A stretch of 64,000 bases of DNA from Synechococcus sp. RS9916. GTDB taxonomy: Bacteria; Cyanobacteriota; Cyanobacteriia; PCC-6307; Cyanobiaceae. The stretch covers positions 2,349,707 through 2,413,706 of the forward strand of contig NZ_DS022299.1 of the NCBI RefSeq assembly GCF_000153825.1, written 5' to 3'. A program made the position numbers and the translations under genes. Every line of letters starts with the position of its first letter. Position 1 is the stretch's first letter. Of this stretch, positions 35,766-43,205 are shown one piece after another. Below the pieces are notes generated by a model. It saw only the letters and a list, made by a program, of their open reading frames with translations, was not told the DNA's origin and searched no databases.

Positions 35766-37964
35766 TCAGCTCAGGCTGTAGCGGATGTCCGCACCGAGTT
35801 GTCTGAGTTGAAGGTGGGTCAGGCTGAGGTGTTGGTTGTCCCAGGGATTGCGGATGTCAAATCTCCCAGTCTCAGCGTCATAGCCCACAATCGAGTAGGC
35901 GTGGCCTTGCACGCCAGAGCTGATATTGGTGGGGCCACTTCCAGAGCCTGTGGCTAAGCCGTTGAATCCTCGAACGGTCACGACGCGATCGCTGTTCACA
36001 TAATTGATCAGCTCAGCATTACTGACTCCGTTAATGCCGGTGAGGTTCACAGCTTCTGATGTCGCGCTCAACCCTGTGATGTGGGTAATTGCAGTCGCAG
36101 AGTTGCCGCCGCTGATGCCTGCGTAGGAGTTGCGCCCGTTTTGGCTGATTCGACCTGATTCGTTCACCTGGGCATAAGCCTTCTCAGCAAGGGCGACCCA
36201 CAGCTCATTGTTGTCAGCGACCACATTTTGGACTCCATTATCGCCGCCTGAGTTGGCATAGAGGTAGCGATCTGTCGCTGATGTGGCCATCATGCTATCG
36301 ACGGTCACGTAATCGACTTTGCCGTTGGTGTAGAAGCGAACGCTATAGGTGCCATCGCCATTGTCGGTGAACATGTCTTGAATCATTTCGGCCTTGTCAT
36401 TGGCCGTGCCAGCAAGAGCAGAGAGGAAATAGCAGCTTCCCACCCCTCCCTGATCGATGTCATCGGCGCTCACTCCGTCCACAAACAGGCTGCCTCCAGC
36501 TTGGGTGTACTCGCCAGCAGCCACGGGCCTGTCAAGCCCAAGCATGTGTTTGCCGATTAGAAGATTCAGGTCTTGAGTGCTGGAGCCGGCTTCGAGGTCG
36601 CCGAGATCAGTCACGATGCTGTCGGAGCCTGTATACCAAGCATTGCTGTCATCGTGGAACAGCACCTTTTCAGACAAAACTGCGAGATCAGAGCGCATTG
36701 TGCCGCTGAAAATGTTGTGGAATTGGCGTAGATCGGTTAGCTCAGTATTGGTGACAGACCCATAGTCTCCAGCACTTTTAAGAATGCCGATGATGTCGTT
36801 GCGCCCGAAGTCGCCGTCGTATTTGATGGAATTCAGTGCGGCATTCTTGACGCTGCTGTCATCGATCCAGGCTTCGACGATTTGTTCGAAGCAGTCGGCC
36901 TGGCGGCTGATGTTGAAGTTGAAGGCTGTTGCGCCATTGTTGTTCCAGAATGAGGTGTTGTAGCTGTAGATCCGGCTGGTGTAGTGGCCTTCATTGAGGA
37001 AGGTGCTGATGTTTTCGTCTTGGGTGCCTGAGTTGTTAGACCAGCTGACTAGTGATCCGCTTTCGTTGTAAAGGGCAAGGCCGACATTGGCTCCTAAGTT
37101 GGAGAGAGAGAGGTCGTAATTGCCTGCTTTCCCGGCATAGAAAGAGAAGTAATCGTTGGAGTCACGATTTCTGCCACTGCCATAGCCAATCGTTCCGATC
37201 ACCTCTTTGTCGTCGCGATAGGCCACTGTGCCGATGTCGGCTGCATTGTTCTTGCTGTCGGTGATGTCGTATCCGCTGCCCTCATGAGCTGAAAAGCCGC
37301 TGCCCCAGGTGAAGTTGTAGAGGGTTTCTGTGCCTGCAGATTGATCGCGATCAAAGCGTTCTTCTGCCAGCAAATTGTTCACCTCAGCGCGTTCGCCGAG
37401 ATGGGAGAGAAACTCTGGATCAATGTCAAGGATTCCCGGCATTGGGATGAAGCCAATCGCATCTTCTGAATCGCCCGTGAGTGGATCCAGTTGTTGTGGT
37501 GCCGTGTTGAGGCCAATGGAATTGGTTTGATCGAGATTGAGTGGATCAGTAGGAGCTGCGTGTTGTGCGCTGCTGATCGCGCGGCCATCAGGATGGCCTC
37601 CGGTCAGCTGATCGATTGGTGTTTGAACGCTGAGCCTTTGGCCCAAGTCGTGCATTGGCTCGGCTGTGCCTGTGAGTGCGTCGTTGTTGCTGCCTGGGTT
37701 GACGCCGCGTTGAGTGGGTTGGGCGTTGTGGCCCTGTGGCAGGGCGCTGTGACGTTGAATTCTTTCTGCGCCGTTGGTCTGACCAGCTTCATCCCAGGGA
37801 GAGATCAGGGTGTCTTCGCTGAGGGGGTTGATGGCGCCTGGGGTGAGCGGATCGTTGCTCTGGCCCAGGCCGTAGGAGGTGGCCTCGGATCCGGCGACGC
37901 GTTGATAAGCGTTGCCGGCATCGAAGTTGTTGTTGAGTTTTCCGTCGAGGTTGAATTCGAGCAT
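35766..37964 (-). CDS. Calpain-like cysteine protease with PPC domain, paralogue 1
   Basis: 732 residues. There is no classical signal peptide; instead a conserved N-terminal stretch (MLEFNLDGKLNNNFDAGNAY) shared by all three paralogues, then a disordered region to about 180. A PPC-like beta-sandwich follows (NDYFSFYAGKAGNYDLSLSN, about 275). The C-terminal third is a C2-type papain-like domain: active Cys in DIDQGGVGSCYFLSALAG (about 510-527), and the His and Asn pair in VQGHAYSIVGYDAETGRF and DIRNPWDN near the C-terminus. Such proteins are calcium-type proteases or related peptidases in bacteria. A secreted or surface role is inferred. Copies 1 and 3 are more alike than either is to copy 2. 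Confidence 0.85.
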   Translation of the reverse strand: MLEFNLDGKLNNNFDAGNAYQRVAGSEATSYGLGQSNDPLTPGAINPLSEDTLISPWDEAGQTNGAERIQRHSALPQGHNAQPTQRGVNPGSNNDALTGTAEPMHDLGQRLSVQTPIDQLTGGHPDGRAISSAQHAAPTDPLNLDQTNSIGLNTAPQQLDPLTGDSEDAIGFIPMPGILDIDPEFLSHLGERAEVNNLLAEERFDRDQSAGTETLYNFTWGSGFSAHEGSGYDITDSKNNAADIGTVAYRDDKEVIGTIGYGSGRNRDSNDYFSFYAGKAGNYDLSLSNLGANVGLALYNESGSLVSWSNNSGTQDENISTFLNEGHYTSRIYSYNTSFWNNNGATAFNFNISRQADCFEQIVEAWIDDSSVKNAALNSIKYDGDFGRNDIIGILKSAGDYGSVTNTELTDLRQFHNIFSGTMRSDLAVLSEKVLFHDDSNAWYTGSDSIVTDLGDLEAGSSTQDLNLLIGKHMLGLDRPVAAGEYTQAGGSLFVDGVSADDIDQGGVGSCYFLSALAGTANDKAEMIQDMFTDNGDGTYSVRFYTNGKVDYVTVDSMMATSATDRYLYANSGGDNGVQNVVADNNELWVALAEKAYAQVNESGRISQNGRNSYAGISGGNSATAITHITGLSATSEAVNLTGINGVSNAELINYVNSDRVVTVRGFNGLATGSGSGPTNISSGVQGHAYSIVGYDAETGRFDIRNPWDNQHLSLTHLQLRQLGADIRYSLS

Positions 37965-38068
37965 GGGAGGGAAGAATGAGTGTGGAAGATCTGGGCTGGG
38001 TGTGTGACCTCTGTTGCTCAGTGTTCCCGCTCTGCTTGTTGAGCTTGATGACCAGGATCACGGCTCGC

Positions 38069-38084
38069 TGTGATTTTGATCACA
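38069..38084. promoter_or_regulatory. CRP-type operator upstream of calpain-like gene 1
   Basis: TGTGATTTTGATCACA, a perfect TGTGA-N6-TCACA palindrome, which is the cAMP receptor protein/SyCRP1 consensus. It ends 105 bp before the start of the gene at 37964. The same site at nearly the same distance precedes the other two paralogues. Confidence 0.7.
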
Positions 38085-38172
38085 GGTTGATGCGTGGTGA
38101 TTTGTGCTTTGTTGATCGGTCGTTAATTCGTGTGCTTTGTCCTTGATGATTCGCCGTCGTTGATAGACGTGA

Positions 38173-38198
38173 AAAAAGGTGGCCTAAGCCACCTTTTT
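38173..38198 (-). terminator. Bidirectional-type hairpin between calpain genes 1 and 2
   Basis: Stem AAAAAGGTGGC (38173-38183) and GCCACCTTTTT (38188-38198), 4-base loop. It serves the minus transcript from gene 2 and sits upstream of the gene 1 operator. The core GGTGGC is shared with the hairpins after genes 3 and 43282. Confidence 0.85.
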
Positions 38199-38232
38199 GT
38201 TTCTTCTGTTTTTTGCGGCTTGATTGGTATAG

Positions 38233-38258
38233 AACAGGAGGTCGAATGACCTCCTGTT
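38233..38258 (-). terminator. Second hairpin just after calpain-like gene 2
   Basis: Stem AACAGGAGGTC (38233-38243) and GACCTCCTGTT (38248-38258), loop GAAT, starting 6 bp after the gene 2 stop. It has no strong U-tract of its own, so it may act with the hairpin at 38173, or stabilise the 3' end. Confidence 0.65.
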
Positions 38259-38264
38259 ATCGAT

Positions 38265-40520
38265 TTAGGTATTGGAATAGTTGACAGTGCCTCCCAGGTT
38301 CCGAAGTTGGTTGTAGGTCAGGCTGAGGTCGAAGTTGCCCCAGGGATTCTGAATGTTGAATCGCTGTGTGGCGGCGTTGTATCCGACAATTGCATAGACG
38401 TGGCCTTGCACTGCTGAGCCAATGTTTGTGCTGCTGGTGCTCTTCCAGTCGATGGATCCGTCGCCGTCATCATCGGTGGAAGCGTTGCCGTTGAAGCCGT
38501 CAATAGTGACGATATTGTCGCCATTCACAAGATTGATCAGCTCGTTCTTGGTGAGCCCTGCATCCCAGCTAAAGGGATTCCACCAGGTTGATTCAACGAG
38601 GCGCTCTTGTGTTGTGTTGAGTCCGGTGATGTGGGTCGTGGTGGCGTCGGCCCAGCCCCAGCTGATCCCCTCATTCCATTGGCGCCCATAACGGTTGGTG
38701 CTTTCCTCTTGGCCGAGGCGTCCTGACTCGTTCAGTTGGGCATAGGCTTTCTCGGCAAGGGCGACCCAGAGCTCGTTGTTATCGGCAACCTGCTGCTTTC
38801 CTGCCGCTCCATCATCGGCATACATGTATCGACCATTGGAGTCGGTCGCCATCATGTTGTCGACAGTGACGTAATCAGCCTGGCCGTTTGTGTAGAAGCG
38901 GACGCTATAAGTGCCGTCGCCATTGTCTTCGAACATGTCGCGGATGATGCTTGGCTTCTCATGGGCTGTACTGGCTAATGGAGCCAGCAAGTAACAGTCT
39001 CCGGTTTGTCCTTGGTCGATATCTGTGAAGCTCACTCCATCCATGAATAGGCTTCCTCCAGCTTGTGTGTAGCTGCCAGCCACATTTCCAGAACTGTTGC
39101 TATGGATCATGGGTCTGTCGGTGCCCAGCATGTGCTTGCCGATCAGCAGGTTGAGGTTCTGAGTGCTGGTGCCCGCTTCTAGGTTGCCAAGTGAATTGCG
39201 AATGCTGTCGTAGCCGGTGTACCAGGCGTTGCTGTCATCGCCAAAGATCACTTTTTTGGAGAGGCCTGCGATGTCGGCACGCATTGTACCGCTGAACATA
39301 TTGTGTATTTGGCGTAGATCGGTTAGTTCCGTGCTGCTAACGGAGTCGTAATCGCCGGCACTCTTGAGAATTCCGACCATGTCATTGCGACCAAAGTCGT
39401 TGTCATATTTGATCGAGTTGAGCGCCGCATTCTTGACGCTGCTGTCGTCGATCCAGGTTTCTATATCTTGTTCGAAAATGTCGGCCTGGCGGCTAATGTT
39501 TAGATCGAAGGCGGTGGCGCCGTTGTTGTTGGAAGCTGCGCTGTTGTGGCTGTAAACGAGACTGGTGTACCAGCCCTCATTCAGGAAGGTGCTGATGCTT
39601 TCGTCCTGGGTGCCACTTTTGTTGGAGTAGCTCATCAAGGAGCCGCTCTCGTTGTAAAGGGCCAGTCCTACGTTGGCGCTGAGCAGAGAGAGGGAGAGGT
39701 CATACGTGCCGCTCTTGCCGGCATAGAAGGAGAAGTAATCGTTGCGGTCGCGATAGCCATTGCTGGTGTAGCCGACGGTGCCAAGCACGTTCTTGTCATC
39801 GCGGTATGCAACGGTCCCGAGCTCTGCGGCGTTGCTGCGGCTGTCGGTGATGTCATAGCCGCTGCCCTCGTTGGCGCTATACCCGCTTCCAGTGGTGAAG
39901 TTGTAGAAGGTTTCTTTGCCGCCGGTTTGATCGCGATTGAAGCGTTCCTCTGCGAGCAGATCGTTGACTTCTTGGCGTTCTCCTAGATAAGAAATCAGCT
40001 CATCGCTAACCCAGTCCGCAGACAGGGTTTCTCCGATGGGTATGTAGGCAAATCCTGCTTGGGATTGATGGGATGTTCCAGTAATGGGATCTGATGTTTT
40101 GCCCTTTGGATTCCCGGCGCTTTGTTCGAATTGCTTTTGGGTGTCGATGGCAGCATCAAGAGTTACTTCCGCTGCGGGCAGTTGTCGATCTGCTTCGAGA
40201 ACTGTGCCGGTGAGGGCGTCTGTGGTGTTGTGATTCCCGCTGTCCTTGCCGGGGTTGACGCCGCGTTGGGTGGCTTGGGCATTGTGGCCTTGCGGCAGTG
40301 CACCATTGCGCTTGATACCTTCTGCGTTGCTGGCCTGGCCAGCCTCGTCCCAGGGCGAAAGCAACTCGTCTTCGCTTAAGGGGTTGATTGCGCCTGGGGT
40401 GAGCGGATCGTTGCTCTGGTCGAGGCCGTACGAGGTGGTATCGGATCCGGCGACGCGTTGATAAGCGTCGCCAGCATCGAAGGTGTTGTTGAGCTTGCCG
40501 TCGAGGTTGAATTCGAGCAT
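38265..40520 (-). CDS. Calpain-like cysteine protease with PPC domain, paralogue 2
   Basis: 751 residues with the same plan as its neighbours: conserved N-terminus (MLEFNLDGKLNNTFDAGDAY), disordered linker, PPC-like domain (NDYFSFYAGKSGTYDLSLSL) and C-terminal papain-like domain. Active Cys in DIDQGQTGDCYLLAPLAS, where LAPLAS replaces the LSALAG of the other two. The His and Asn are in VQGHVYAIVGYNAATQRFNI and NPWGN. Longest of the three because of extra residues before the His (FNGNASTDDDGDGSIDWKS), an acidic loop that could bind calcium. The most divergent copy, although it lies in the middle. Confidence 0.85.
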   Translation of the reverse strand: MLEFNLDGKLNNTFDAGDAYQRVAGSDTTSYGLDQSNDPLTPGAINPLSEDELLSPWDEAGQASNAEGIKRNGALPQGHNAQATQRGVNPGKDSGNHNTTDALTGTVLEADRQLPAAEVTLDAAIDTQKQFEQSAGNPKGKTSDPITGTSHQSQAGFAYIPIGETLSADWVSDELISYLGERQEVNDLLAEERFNRDQTGGKETFYNFTTGSGYSANEGSGYDITDSRSNAAELGTVAYRDDKNVLGTVGYTSNGYRDRNDYFSFYAGKSGTYDLSLSLLSANVGLALYNESGSLMSYSNKSGTQDESISTFLNEGWYTSLVYSHNSAASNNNGATAFDLNISRQADIFEQDIETWIDDSSVKNAALNSIKYDNDFGRNDMVGILKSAGDYDSVSSTELTDLRQIHNMFSGTMRADIAGLSKKVIFGDDSNAWYTGYDSIRNSLGNLEAGTSTQNLNLLIGKHMLGTDRPMIHSNSSGNVAGSYTQAGGSLFMDGVSFTDIDQGQTGDCYLLAPLASTAHEKPSIIRDMFEDNGDGTYSVRFYTNGQADYVTVDNMMATDSNGRYMYADDGAAGKQQVADNNELWVALAEKAYAQLNESGRLGQEESTNRYGRQWNEGISWGWADATTTHITGLNTTQERLVESTWWNPFSWDAGLTKNELINLVNGDNIVTIDGFNGNASTDDDGDGSIDWKSTSSTNIGSAVQGHVYAIVGYNAATQRFNIQNPWGNFDLSLTYNQLRNLGGTVNYSNT

Positions 40521-40623
40521 GGGAGGAAAGGTTGAGTGATGGAGATAGTCAGGGAATGAACCTCTGATGCACTCAGCGTTTCCGTTTTCCCGGTTGGTTT
40601 TGATGATTTGGATTTAGTGCGGC

Positions 40624-40639
40624 TGTGATTCTGGTCACA
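40624..40639. promoter_or_regulatory. CRP-type operator upstream of calpain-like gene 2
   Basis: TGTGATTCTGGTCACA, matching TGTGA-N6-TCACA. It ends 104 bp before the start codon at 40520, almost the same spacing as in the neighbouring copies. Confidence 0.7.
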
Positions 40640-40729
40640 GGGTTTTTGTGGTGCTCTGGTTGCCGGTAATGGCGTTTTGCGTTGCTCGGTGTGCTGGGCT
40701 GTCCGTTGCTTGCAGTTTTTATGGACAAA

Positions 40730-40751
40730 AAAGGTGGCCGAAGCCACCTTT
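40730..40751 (-). terminator. Terminator after calpain-like gene 3
   Basis: Stem AAAGGTGGC (40730-40738) and GCCACCTTT (40743-40751) with an A-tract at 40727-40732 on the downstream side. It starts 31 bp after the gene 3 stop. Confidence 0.8.
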
Positions 40752-40781
40752 GTGTTGGTTGTGTTGGGCTGATGGCTGAAT

Positions 40782-42971
40782 TCAGCTGTTGCTCCAGCTG
40801 AACTGTGCGCCCAGACTGATCAATTGTGCATGGGTCAGTGTGGAATGGTTTCGGTCATAGGGATTGCGAATGGTGTATTGGCCTGTGGTGGCGTTGTAGC
40901 CCGTGATGGTGCGAGCGTGACCGCCCCATCCTGCAGCGACGACACGGTTGCTGTTAACGAGGGTTTGCAGCTCCGAAGAGCTCACATTGGTTGCGCCGAC
41001 GCCTGAGGCGCTTGCATTGCCCCAGCTGGAATTGAGTCCAGTGATATGGGTAATCGCGTCGGTGGTGAACCCCCAGCTGATGCCTTCATTACCGGCAATG
41101 CCGTAGCGGTTTGTCGCTTCTTCTTGATTAAGGCGACCCGACTCATTTAGTTGTGCATAGGCTTTTTCAGCCAGGGCAACCCAGAGTTCGTTGTTGTCGG
41201 CCACGAGGGCGTTGGTTGCGGTGCCATCGCCAGCATCAGCATGGAGATAGGTGCCATCGGCTCTGGTCGCCATCATGCTGTCGACGGTGACGTAATCAGT
41301 CTGTCCGTTGGTGTAGAAGCGAACGCTGTAGGTGCCGTCGCCGTTGTCAGTGAACATATCCTCGATGATCGACTCTTTTTTGTCGGCGGTGCCGGCAAGA
41401 GCGGAGAGGAAATAACAGGAGCCTGTCGCTCCTTGGTCGATGTCACCGGCATCAATACCGTCAACAAAGAGGCTGCCTCCAGCTTGGGTGTAGCTGCCGG
41501 TGTGAATCATCGGCCTGTCGGTGCCCAGCATGTGCTTGCCAATCAGTAGATTGAGATTCTGGGTGCTAGTGCCGGCTTCCAGATTGCCGAGTTCATTGCG
41601 AATGCTGTCGTAGCCGGTGTACCAGGCATTGCTGGCATCGCCAAAGACCACTTTTTTCGAGAGGCCGGCAATGTCAGCGCGCATGGTGCCGCTGAATATG
41701 TTGTGGAATTGCTGTAGATCGGTCAGCTCTGTATTGGTGACAGATCCATAGTCGCCAGCACTTTTAAGGATGCCGACGGTATCATTGCGATCAAACAAAT
41801 TGTCATATTTGATCGAGTTGAGGACGGCATTCTTGACGCTGTTGTCATTAATCAAGCAGTTAGTGATTTGTTCAAAGCAGTCGGCCTGGCGGCTGATGTC
41901 GAGGTTGAAGGCTGTTGCGCCGTTGTTGTTCCAGAATGAGGTGTTGTAGCTGTAGATGCGGCTGGTGTAGTGGCCTTCATTGAGGAAGGTGCTGATGTTT
42001 TCATCCTGGGTGCCAGACTTGTTCGACCAGGTGACCAGTGATCCGCTGTCGTTGTAGAGAGCGAGGCCGACATTGGCTCCTAAGTTGGAGAGGGAGAGGT
42101 CGTAAGTGCCCGATTTGCCGGCGTAGAAGGAGAAGTAATCGTTGTAGTCACGATTGCTGCCGCTGCCATAGCCAATCGTTCCGATCACCTCTTTGTCGTC
42201 GCGATAGGCCACGGTGCCGATGTCGGCTGCATTGGTGCGGCTGTCGGTGATGTCGTATCCGCTGCCTTCATTAGCTGAAAAGCCGCTGCCCCAGGTGAAG
42301 TTGTAGTGGGTTTCGGTGCCTGCAGATTGATCGCGATCAAAGCGTTCTTCTGCGAGCAGATTGCTCACCTCCGCGCGTTCGCCGAGATAGGAGAGGAGAT
42401 CTGCATCAAATGCGGTGATCTCCGGCAATGGCATGAAGCCAAAGGATCCGGCCTGCGTCTCGCCTGTGAGTGGATCCAGTTGTTGGGGTGAAGTGTTGAG
42501 ATCAGCTGGATTGGCTTGATCGAGCTGGAGTAGATCAGCGAGAGCTGTCTGTTGTGCGCTGCTGATGGCGCTGCCGTCTTGATGGCCTCCGGTGAGCTGA
42601 TCGATGGGTGCTGTCTCGCTGAGCCGTTGGGCCAGTCTTTGCCCTTGCTGGGCGGCGCTAGAGAAAGCGTCGTTGTCGTTGTGATCGCCGCTGGTGCTGG
42701 TGGGGTTGACGCCGCGTTGGGTGGCTGGGTCATTGTGCCCTTGCGGCAGTGCACCATTGCGCTTGATACCTTCTGCGTTGCTGGGCTGGCCTGCGTCTTC
42801 CCAGGGGGAGATCAGTGTGTCCTCTGTGAGGGGGTTGATGGCGCCTGGAGTGAGCGGATCGTTGCTCTGGCCTAGGCCGTAGGAGGTGGCCTCGGATCCG
42901 GCGACGCGTTGATAAGCGTTGCCGGCATCGAAGTTGTTGTTCAGTTTGCCGTCGAGGTTGAATTCGAGCAT
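40782..42971 (-). CDS. Calpain-like cysteine protease with PPC domain, paralogue 3
   Basis: 729 residues; same architecture and N-terminus as paralogue 1, with which it shares long near-identical stretches. PPC-like domain NDYFSFYAGKSGTYDLSLSN. Active Cys in DIDQGATGSCYFLSALAG. The His region differs: VVAAGWGGHARTITGYNATT in place of VQGHAYSIVGYDAE, but the His and the Asn in TIRNPYDRN are kept, so catalysis is plausible. Expressed from its own promoter region, as judged by the upstream operator and downstream hairpin. Confidence 0.85.
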   Translation of the reverse strand: MLEFNLDGKLNNNFDAGNAYQRVAGSEATSYGLGQSNDPLTPGAINPLTEDTLISPWEDAGQPSNAEGIKRNGALPQGHNDPATQRGVNPTSTSGDHNDNDAFSSAAQQGQRLAQRLSETAPIDQLTGGHQDGSAISSAQQTALADLLQLDQANPADLNTSPQQLDPLTGETQAGSFGFMPLPEITAFDADLLSYLGERAEVSNLLAEERFDRDQSAGTETHYNFTWGSGFSANEGSGYDITDSRTNAADIGTVAYRDDKEVIGTIGYGSGSNRDYNDYFSFYAGKSGTYDLSLSNLGANVGLALYNDSGSLVTWSNKSGTQDENISTFLNEGHYTSRIYSYNTSFWNNNGATAFNLDISRQADCFEQITNCLINDNSVKNAVLNSIKYDNLFDRNDTVGILKSAGDYGSVTNTELTDLQQFHNIFSGTMRADIAGLSKKVVFGDASNAWYTGYDSIRNELGNLEAGTSTQNLNLLIGKHMLGTDRPMIHTGSYTQAGGSLFVDGIDAGDIDQGATGSCYFLSALAGTADKKESIIEDMFTDNGDGTYSVRFYTNGQTDYVTVDSMMATRADGTYLHADAGDGTATNALVADNNELWVALAEKAYAQLNESGRLNQEEATNRYGIAGNEGISWGFTTDAITHITGLNSSWGNASASGVGATNVSSSELQTLVNSNRVVAAGWGGHARTITGYNATTGQYTIRNPYDRNHSTLTHAQLISLGAQFSWSNS

Positions 42972-43008
42972 GGAAGGGAAGAGTGAGTGTGCGAGATCTT
43001 GGTCGTTG

Positions 43009-43024
43009 TGTGACCTCTGTCACG
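43009..43024. promoter_or_regulatory. Possible second, weaker CRP-type site upstream of calpain-like gene 3
   Basis: TGTGACCTCTGTCACG matches TGTGA-N6-TCAC with one changed end base. It lies between the perfect site at 43075 and the start codon. The same region before gene 1 (near 38003-38018) has decayed to TGTGACCTCTGTTGCT, so function here is uncertain. Confidence 0.4.
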
Positions 43025-43074
43025 CAGTGTTCCCGCTCTGCTTATGGGGCTTGATGACCAGGATCACGGCTCGC

Positions 43075-43090
43075 TGTGATCTTGGTCACA
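43075..43090. promoter_or_regulatory. CRP-type operator upstream of calpain-like gene 3
   Basis: TGTGATCTTGGTCACA, a perfect TGTGA-N6-TCACA site ending 104 bp before the start at 42971. About 50 bp on the coding side (CCCGCTCTGCTT, TTGATGACCAGGATCACGGC) are also nearly identical to the region before gene 1, showing that the regulatory DNA was duplicated with the gene. Confidence 0.7.
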
Positions 43091-43177
43091 GACTTATTGG
43101 TGGTGATCTGTGTTTTGTTGGCCGGCCGTTGATTGGTACGCTTTCGCCTTGATTGTTTGCCATCTTTGGTTGACATG

Positions 43178-43205
43178 AAAAAAGGTGGCCAAGGCCACCT
43201 TTTTT
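43178..43205 (-). terminator. Terminator after the DegT aminotransferase gene
   Basis: Perfect 13-bp stem AAAAAAGGTGGCC (43178-43190) and GGCCACCTTTTTT (43193-43205) with a 2-base loop. It lies 77 bp after the stop of the aminotransferase and before the operator of calpain gene 3. The stretch 43206-43281 shows no gene. Confidence 0.85.

Follow-up and report, generated by a model that had tools for sequence, protein, structure and literature searches.

Three calpain-like protease genes follow one another on the minus strand of a 64,000-nucleotide stretch of the Synechococcus sp. RS9916 genome (the window), and each is preceded at almost the same distance by a perfect palindrome of the CRP type, TGTGA-N6-TCACA. 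This raises the question whether the palindromes are operators that place the proteases under one regulator or only inherited copies of one upstream region, and which other genes would share such control.

Calpain genes and their upstream regions

All three products match the calpain C2 domain (PF00648) with 57-73 bits against a cut-off of 23.8. In addition, Cys motifs (GSCYFLSALAG, GDCYLLAPLAS), a His motif (GHAYSIVGYD and similar) and an Asn motif (IRNPW and similar) can be read in the translations of proteins 1-3. By domain score and motifs the proteins are members of the calpain (C2) family and predicted proteases; a weak PPC match stays below its cut-off. The positions within the window are as follows.

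35766..37964, minus strand: calpain-like protease gene 1 (732 aa; PF00648, weak PPC match)
38020..38025, minus strand: predicted -10 of gene 1, AACACT (xAxxxT); predicted start near 38013
38049..38060, minus strand: second, weak palindrome of gene 1, TGATCCTGGTCA, 6/6; predicted centre -41.5
38069..38084, minus strand: putative strong CRP operator of gene 1, TGTGATCAAAATCACA in gene orientation; perfect match; predicted centre -63.5
about 38175-38201: inverted repeat and T run, read from the sequence
38265..40520, minus strand: calpain-like protease gene 2 (751 aa; PF00648)
40575..40580, minus strand: predicted -10 of gene 2, AACGCT; predicted start near 40568
40604..40615, minus strand: degenerate second element of gene 2, AAATCCAAATCA, 4/6, weak
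40624..40639, minus strand: putative strong CRP operator of gene 2, TGTGACCAGAATCACA; perfect match
about 40732-40755: inverted repeat and T run, read from the sequence
40782..42971, minus strand: calpain-like protease gene 3 (729 aa; PF00648)
43009..43024, minus strand: one-mismatch CRP-like match before gene 3; overlaps the predicted start, role uncertain
43026..43031, minus strand: predicted -10 of gene 3, AACACT; predicted start near 43019
43055..43066, minus strand: second, weak palindrome of gene 3, TGATCCTGGTCA, 6/6
43075..43090, minus strand: putative strong CRP operator of gene 3, TGTGACCAAGATCACA, identical to the regulon consensus; perfect match
about 43177-43205: inverted repeat and T run, read from the sequence

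A motif scan confirmed the perfect sites at 38069, 40624 and 43075 that the preliminary description had reported, as well as their distances of 105, 104 and 104 bp from site start to ATG (37964, 40520 and 42971). The argument built on these distances, that equal spacing of three sites would be an improbable coincidence, fails nonetheless: the genes are tandem paralogues (protein identity to the third copy 71-74%) and their aligned upstream regions show 75% mean column identity, so the equal spacing is inherited and not independent. An independent origin of the three operators is thereby ruled out. Loosely scored sites (up to two mismatches) are not enriched in the window, with 15 found against 26 expected.

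On the 3' side of calpain genes 2 and 3, and likewise of the neighbouring DegT-family gene, there is a G+C-rich inverted repeat with a T run behind it (in gene orientation). Because of these elements each calpain gene looks like a separate transcription unit with a promoter of its own. The additional match before gene 3 can fold in the transcript into a hairpin (GTGAC-AGAG-GTCAC) over the predicted start, and for that reason a third operator at 43009 is disfavoured.

Genome-wide sites and promoter architecture

The genome, a single contig of 2,664,873 bp, contains 27 perfect copies of TGTGA-N6-TCACA whereas about 1.4 are expected from base composition, which rules out a chance origin; the reversed-pattern control occurs once. 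The gene-oriented consensus reads TGTGA-YCAAGA-TCACA. Nearly all 27 sites lie upstream of an ORF, with the start codon at +96 to +113 bp from the site centre. Exceptions are the site at 1026254 (in the fourth copy of a tandem repeat), which has no ORF, and the site at 365578, which sits at the end of a neighbouring gene and has an uncertain target. Across the genome the sites thus show a strong positional preference rather than a scattered distribution, and the spacing of roughly 105 bp recurs outside the calpain cluster.

When 75 unique gene-oriented promoters from eight genomes were aligned with the perfect site as anchor, another palindrome, TGA-N6-TCA, became visible at 22 bp, together with a -10-like block at +51 to +56. 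Neither element, nor the extent of the regulon, had been noticed in the preliminary description. In the own genome 24 of the 27 sites have the centre of the second palindrome exactly 22 bp downstream of that of the perfect one. The same offset emerges when gene calls are ignored: a second palindrome with at least 5/6 matches stands at offset 22 in 93 of 115 sites from eight genomes, against a mean of 1.5 at other offsets. With the direction set by the second palindrome only, xAxxxT is present at +51 in all 27 own sites (no other offset gives more than 4) and in 69/71 sites of seven relatives. Many target promoters within one genome are related by duplication and are therefore not fully independent. 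For 36 non-redundant promoters (less than 80% identical to each other), which were selected for the second element and not for the -10, A52 and T56 are invariant, while C62, A63 and T64 each occur in 27/36.

No -35 hexamer was found at a proper distance in the aligned promoters, in spite of the -10. The second block often carries TTGA on its left, but this is ruled out as a -35 hexamer by its spacing, since about 30 bp separate it from the -10 where about 17 would be needed. If T56 is taken as -7, transcription would start at +63, which predicts the second palindrome to be centred at -41.5 and the perfect site at -63.5. The former is the class II position of CRP, the classical activating position. 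The same architecture is seen in seven relatives, including Prochlorococcus, and the layout is kept ahead of genes for unrelated proteins, over a range of genomes of 35 to 62% GC.

The candidate regulator and its distribution

Five proteins of the genome exceed the HTH_Crp_2 cut-off, of which only one has a CRP-type recognition helix (AGLARETASRTLSKL). This CRP homologue of 226 aa is encoded outside the window (genome 1856155-1856832, minus strand) and matches PF00027, PF13545 and PF00325 above cut-off, giving an N-terminal cNMP domain and a C-terminal Crp HTH; among proteins of known structure it matches E. coli CRP and its relatives. Its helix, A-R-E-T-A-S-R, holds the Arg-Glu...Arg needed for TGTGA. 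R-E-T-A-S-R is invariant across nine orthologues that share 45-76% identity with the own protein, as is the Arg-Ser of the phosphate cassette. On these features the regulator is a member of the CRP/FNR superfamily of the CRP type. Since it scores only 66.4 bits against a cut-off of 266 for the NCBIfam CRP equivalog (NF008732), it belongs to the CRP family without being an E. coli-type equivalog. NtcA or another CRP/FNR paralogue is disfavoured as the TGTGA binder, as the four paralogues lack the Arg-Glu pair in the helix.

Class III cyclases are present as well, and 8.9 kb separate the better match from the CRP gene. The CRP locus encodes a CHASE2 class III cyclase (PF05226 and PF00211), for which the best matches among known structures are adenylate cyclases, together with a CHAT protein with a ShlB-type partner and further cNMP-domain proteins. 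The genome therefore does hold a CRP-family gene besides ntcA with the helix that the sites call for, and the proposal of the preliminary description, one CRP-family regulator over the three operators, is supported by positional preference, recognition helix and cyclases.

We compared 151 genomes of the same family, 27 of which have a CRP orthologue. All ten genomes with at least 7 perfect sites are among these 27. The mean number of perfect sites is 6.6 with CRP and 1.2 without, and the control pattern is not higher in genomes with CRP. The composite of both palindromes, scanned with at most one mismatch, is found in 21 of the 27 genomes with CRP (167 hits) against 8 of the 124 without (15 hits), whereas the control gave 2 hits in total. 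The pattern can also be followed within genera. In genus g56 the one genome with CRP (G056) has 22 perfect sites and its four congeners without CRP have 1-4; in genus g10 the numbers are 3-6 and 0-1, respectively. A cyclase is present in 26/27 genomes with CRP and in 34/124 without, and in many cases it is no more than about 3 kb away from CRP. A calpain homologue occurs in only 3 of the 151 genomes, all of them with CRP. The P values for co-occurrence range from 2e-7 to 8e-19, not corrected for phylogeny.

Judged from sequence, this is the pattern of a CRP regulon, with sites enriched together with the regulator and lost without it, but with exceptions. Six of the 27 genomes with CRP have no composite site, and G005, G035, G090 and G111 have no perfect site despite their CRP orthologue. 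Conversely, G004, G075 and G002 retain a few composite sites without a CRP orthologue. These leftover sites (L169) may mean that the regulator was lost recently or replaced by another, or that its gene escaped detection.

Predicted target genes and peptide export

The targets in the own genome, classed by eye, comprise about 12 peptides with a double-glycine or similar leader, the 3 calpains and 3 proteins that are RTX-like or rich in Gly/Asp. A further 6 apparently carry a signal peptide or membrane segment, and 3 cases are uncertain. Three of the five target peptides scanned with the CCRG-2 RiPP model (NF033456) exceed its cut-off (29.8, 40.1 and 42.3 against 24 bits). With an 18-residue leader ending in Gly-Gly as the mark of the family, these target peptides are CCRG-2 RiPPs by sequence, and their modification and export are predicted. 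The suggested tie of the proteases to carbon or motility is not supported, the other targets being secreted peptides and exported proteins; a surface or secretion state is the best fit to the targets.

A one-mismatch composite site was seen before another double-glycine peptide (genome 604894; L167:2507-2779). By this site the regulon exceeds the 27 perfect sites.

The calpain homologue of G056, which we take to be a Prochlorococcus, belongs to another genus (49% identity over 570 aa; GC about 35% in the stretches analysed) and has its own perfect site 97 bp upstream. Cyclase and CRP are encoded in the stretch that holds this homologue, as is an export set (TIGR03896/NHLM ABC2-like/HlyD/C39-ABC1) with double-glycine peptides behind it. 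The own genome has this export set too, at a distance of about 16-23 kb from CRP. An NHLM/C39 peptide exporter is thus found near CRP and cyclase in two divergent genomes, and its parts match the NHLM models (TIGR03794/03796/03896) above cut-off. No composite site was found before the exporter operon near CRP, nor in the 12-kb calpain locus of G064, the third genome with a calpain.

Most perfect sites of G056 fall within one stretch of about 83 kb (L080-L081 and L131-L133, 505-602 kb), which also contains CRP, cyclase, exporter and calpain. This suggests that regulator and regulon share a genomic island there.

Proposed mechanism and alternatives

The motif, its spacing, the -10 block, the co-occurrence with CRP and cyclase genes and the target classes are the observations from which we propose a mechanism. 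We consider it probable that cyclic-nucleotide-activated CRP acts through tandem operators, strong at -63.5 and weak at -41.5, to recruit polymerase to the promoters of secreted peptides and proteins and of the calpains. Cyclic AMP or a similar nucleotide made by the class III cyclases would activate the 226-aa CRP, which would bind the perfect site at -63.5. The same CRP, or a second dimer, may then occupy the abutting weak TGA-N6-TCA at -41.5, two helical turns downstream and on about the same face, and polymerase would be recruited to promoters that have a -10 and no -35. With the perfect site giving affinity and the weak site activation, output would depend steeply on the amount of active CRP. 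The regulon would span at least 27 perfect sites, including the calpains, each with its own promoter, and could serve to release secreted peptides and enzymes in a coordinated way as the level of the cyclic nucleotide goes up. Candidate signals, taken from the CCRG literature only, are co-culture or darkness.

It may also be argued that CRP binds the perfect site only, in a class I-like manner at -63.5, and that the block at -41.5 serves another CRP/FNR-family protein or a polymerase contact. The genome does encode four further proteins above the HTH_Crp_2 cut-off, the second block is a general CRP/FNR half-site core often with TTGA at its left, and a spacing of 22 bp would leave two CRP dimers little room. 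However, the absence of the Arg-Glu pair also from these four, NtcA included, and the fact that from genome to genome the second element goes together with the same CRP gene make this reading unlikely in our opinion. More doubtful still, and in our view very improbable, is repression, in which CRP at -63.5 and -41.5 would block RNA polymerase and the genes would come on when cAMP falls. The direction of control cannot be read from sequence, and the one-mismatch match overlapping the predicted start of calpain gene 3 would suit a repressor; yet that match is better read as an RNA hairpin, the -41.5 position is by general knowledge an activating one, and the promoters are without a -35 hexamer.

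The question raised at the outset, whether the palindromes are passive hitch-hikers in copied upstream regions without a regulatory role, can be addressed from the comparisons above. The three calpain upstream regions are homologous and several further sites sit in tandem repeat arrays, as this explanation would have it. Nevertheless, the site count depends on the presence of CRP, and the same layout stands before unrelated proteins at 35 to 62% GC, so that we find a mere duplication artefact hardly credible. Activation by CRP through the tandem operators accordingly remains our preferred reading.

Relation to known systems

The predicted system resembles E. coli cAMP-CRP in its site (TGTGA-N6-TCACA), its helix (Arg-Glu...Arg), the -41.5 position and the cNMP domain with Arg-Ser in the phosphate cassette. 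It differs from E. coli CRP promoters in that two palindromes abut at 22 bp in nearly every target, in that the targets belong to the secretome rather than to carbon catabolism, and in the equivalog score (66 bits against a cut-off of 266). To our knowledge such a geometry of two abutting palindromes has not been described for CRP, and the promoters presented here offer a natural example.

CRP and CRP-like sites were predicted for MIT9313, MIT9303, CC9311 and CC9605 by Xu and Su in 2009 (PMC2633013), but the portions of those predictions and of the SyCRP1 regulon considered here contain neither a tandem element nor -10 phasing, and neither calpain genes nor a link to double-glycine peptides. 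For marine Synechococcus, the island module Syn_GI122 (PMC7522525, 2020) brings together CHAT proteins, CRP and adenylate cyclases within shared islands, as does the own locus (L029) with its CHAT protein, cyclase and CRP; unlike the present work, that account gives no operator or regulon in the portion considered. CCRG-2 peptides are secreted small peptides of Prochlorococcus and Synechococcus (PMC8120280), and according to PMC5974335 earlier work had found induction of CCRG-1 in co-culture and its enrichment in the dark. The targets and exporter parts described here resemble CCRG-2 family RiPPs (NF033456) and NHLM export (TIGR03794/03796/03896) with scores above cut-off, and no transcription factor for CCRG-2/NHLM peptides was found in the literature searched. 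The open-licence literature that we searched yielded no description of the tandem architecture, and none in which CRP is linked to the calpains or to control of CCRG-2 or double-glycine peptides. The tandem architecture and the secretome regulon thus appear to be new, whereas CRP in these organisms had already been predicted in 2009.

Prochlorococcus and marine Synechococcus encode numerous secreted peptides that have no assigned role. To the question of how they are switched on, the mechanism brings a testable transcription factor, second messenger and promoter code. The code is common to about 27 promoters in one genome and to relatives of about 35 to 60% GC, and could be used to find more secreted products in genomes and metagenomes. 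We give an even chance to the wider view that in marine picocyanobacteria cAMP-CRP is a dedicated master switch of the secretome, acting on CCRG-2/double-glycine peptides, RTX-like proteins and calpain proteases, and that the tandem operator travels with accessory genes so that new secreted products join the regulon. On this view CRP would also be the regulator behind the reported co-culture responsiveness of CCRG genes.

Hairpins and repeat arrays

Many predicted 5' UTRs of targets (for example L026 and L036) would carry a short hairpin just after the predicted start, in the form GGAGG-GAGA-CCTCC or as sequence variants in which pairing is kept. RNAalifold gave no consensus structure for it; folded one by one, the sequences exceed their shuffled versions in stability, with a mean z of -1.9 compared with -0.1 for a control region. 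A conserved 5' hairpin of target transcripts is only a lead.

Several sites occur in arrays. Four tandem repeats of 512 bp (genome 1024718-1026269; L023:4719-6270) carry one composite site each, and three of the four encode an identical double-glycine peptide, MKNLNHELTEKELQSIAGG. Elsewhere in the own genome, three near-composite sites on both strands fall within 3 kb (143656-146757; L166). In G123 five sites are spaced exactly 870 bp apart (L118:3476-6971), which suggests a tandem array of operator plus exported-protein gene.
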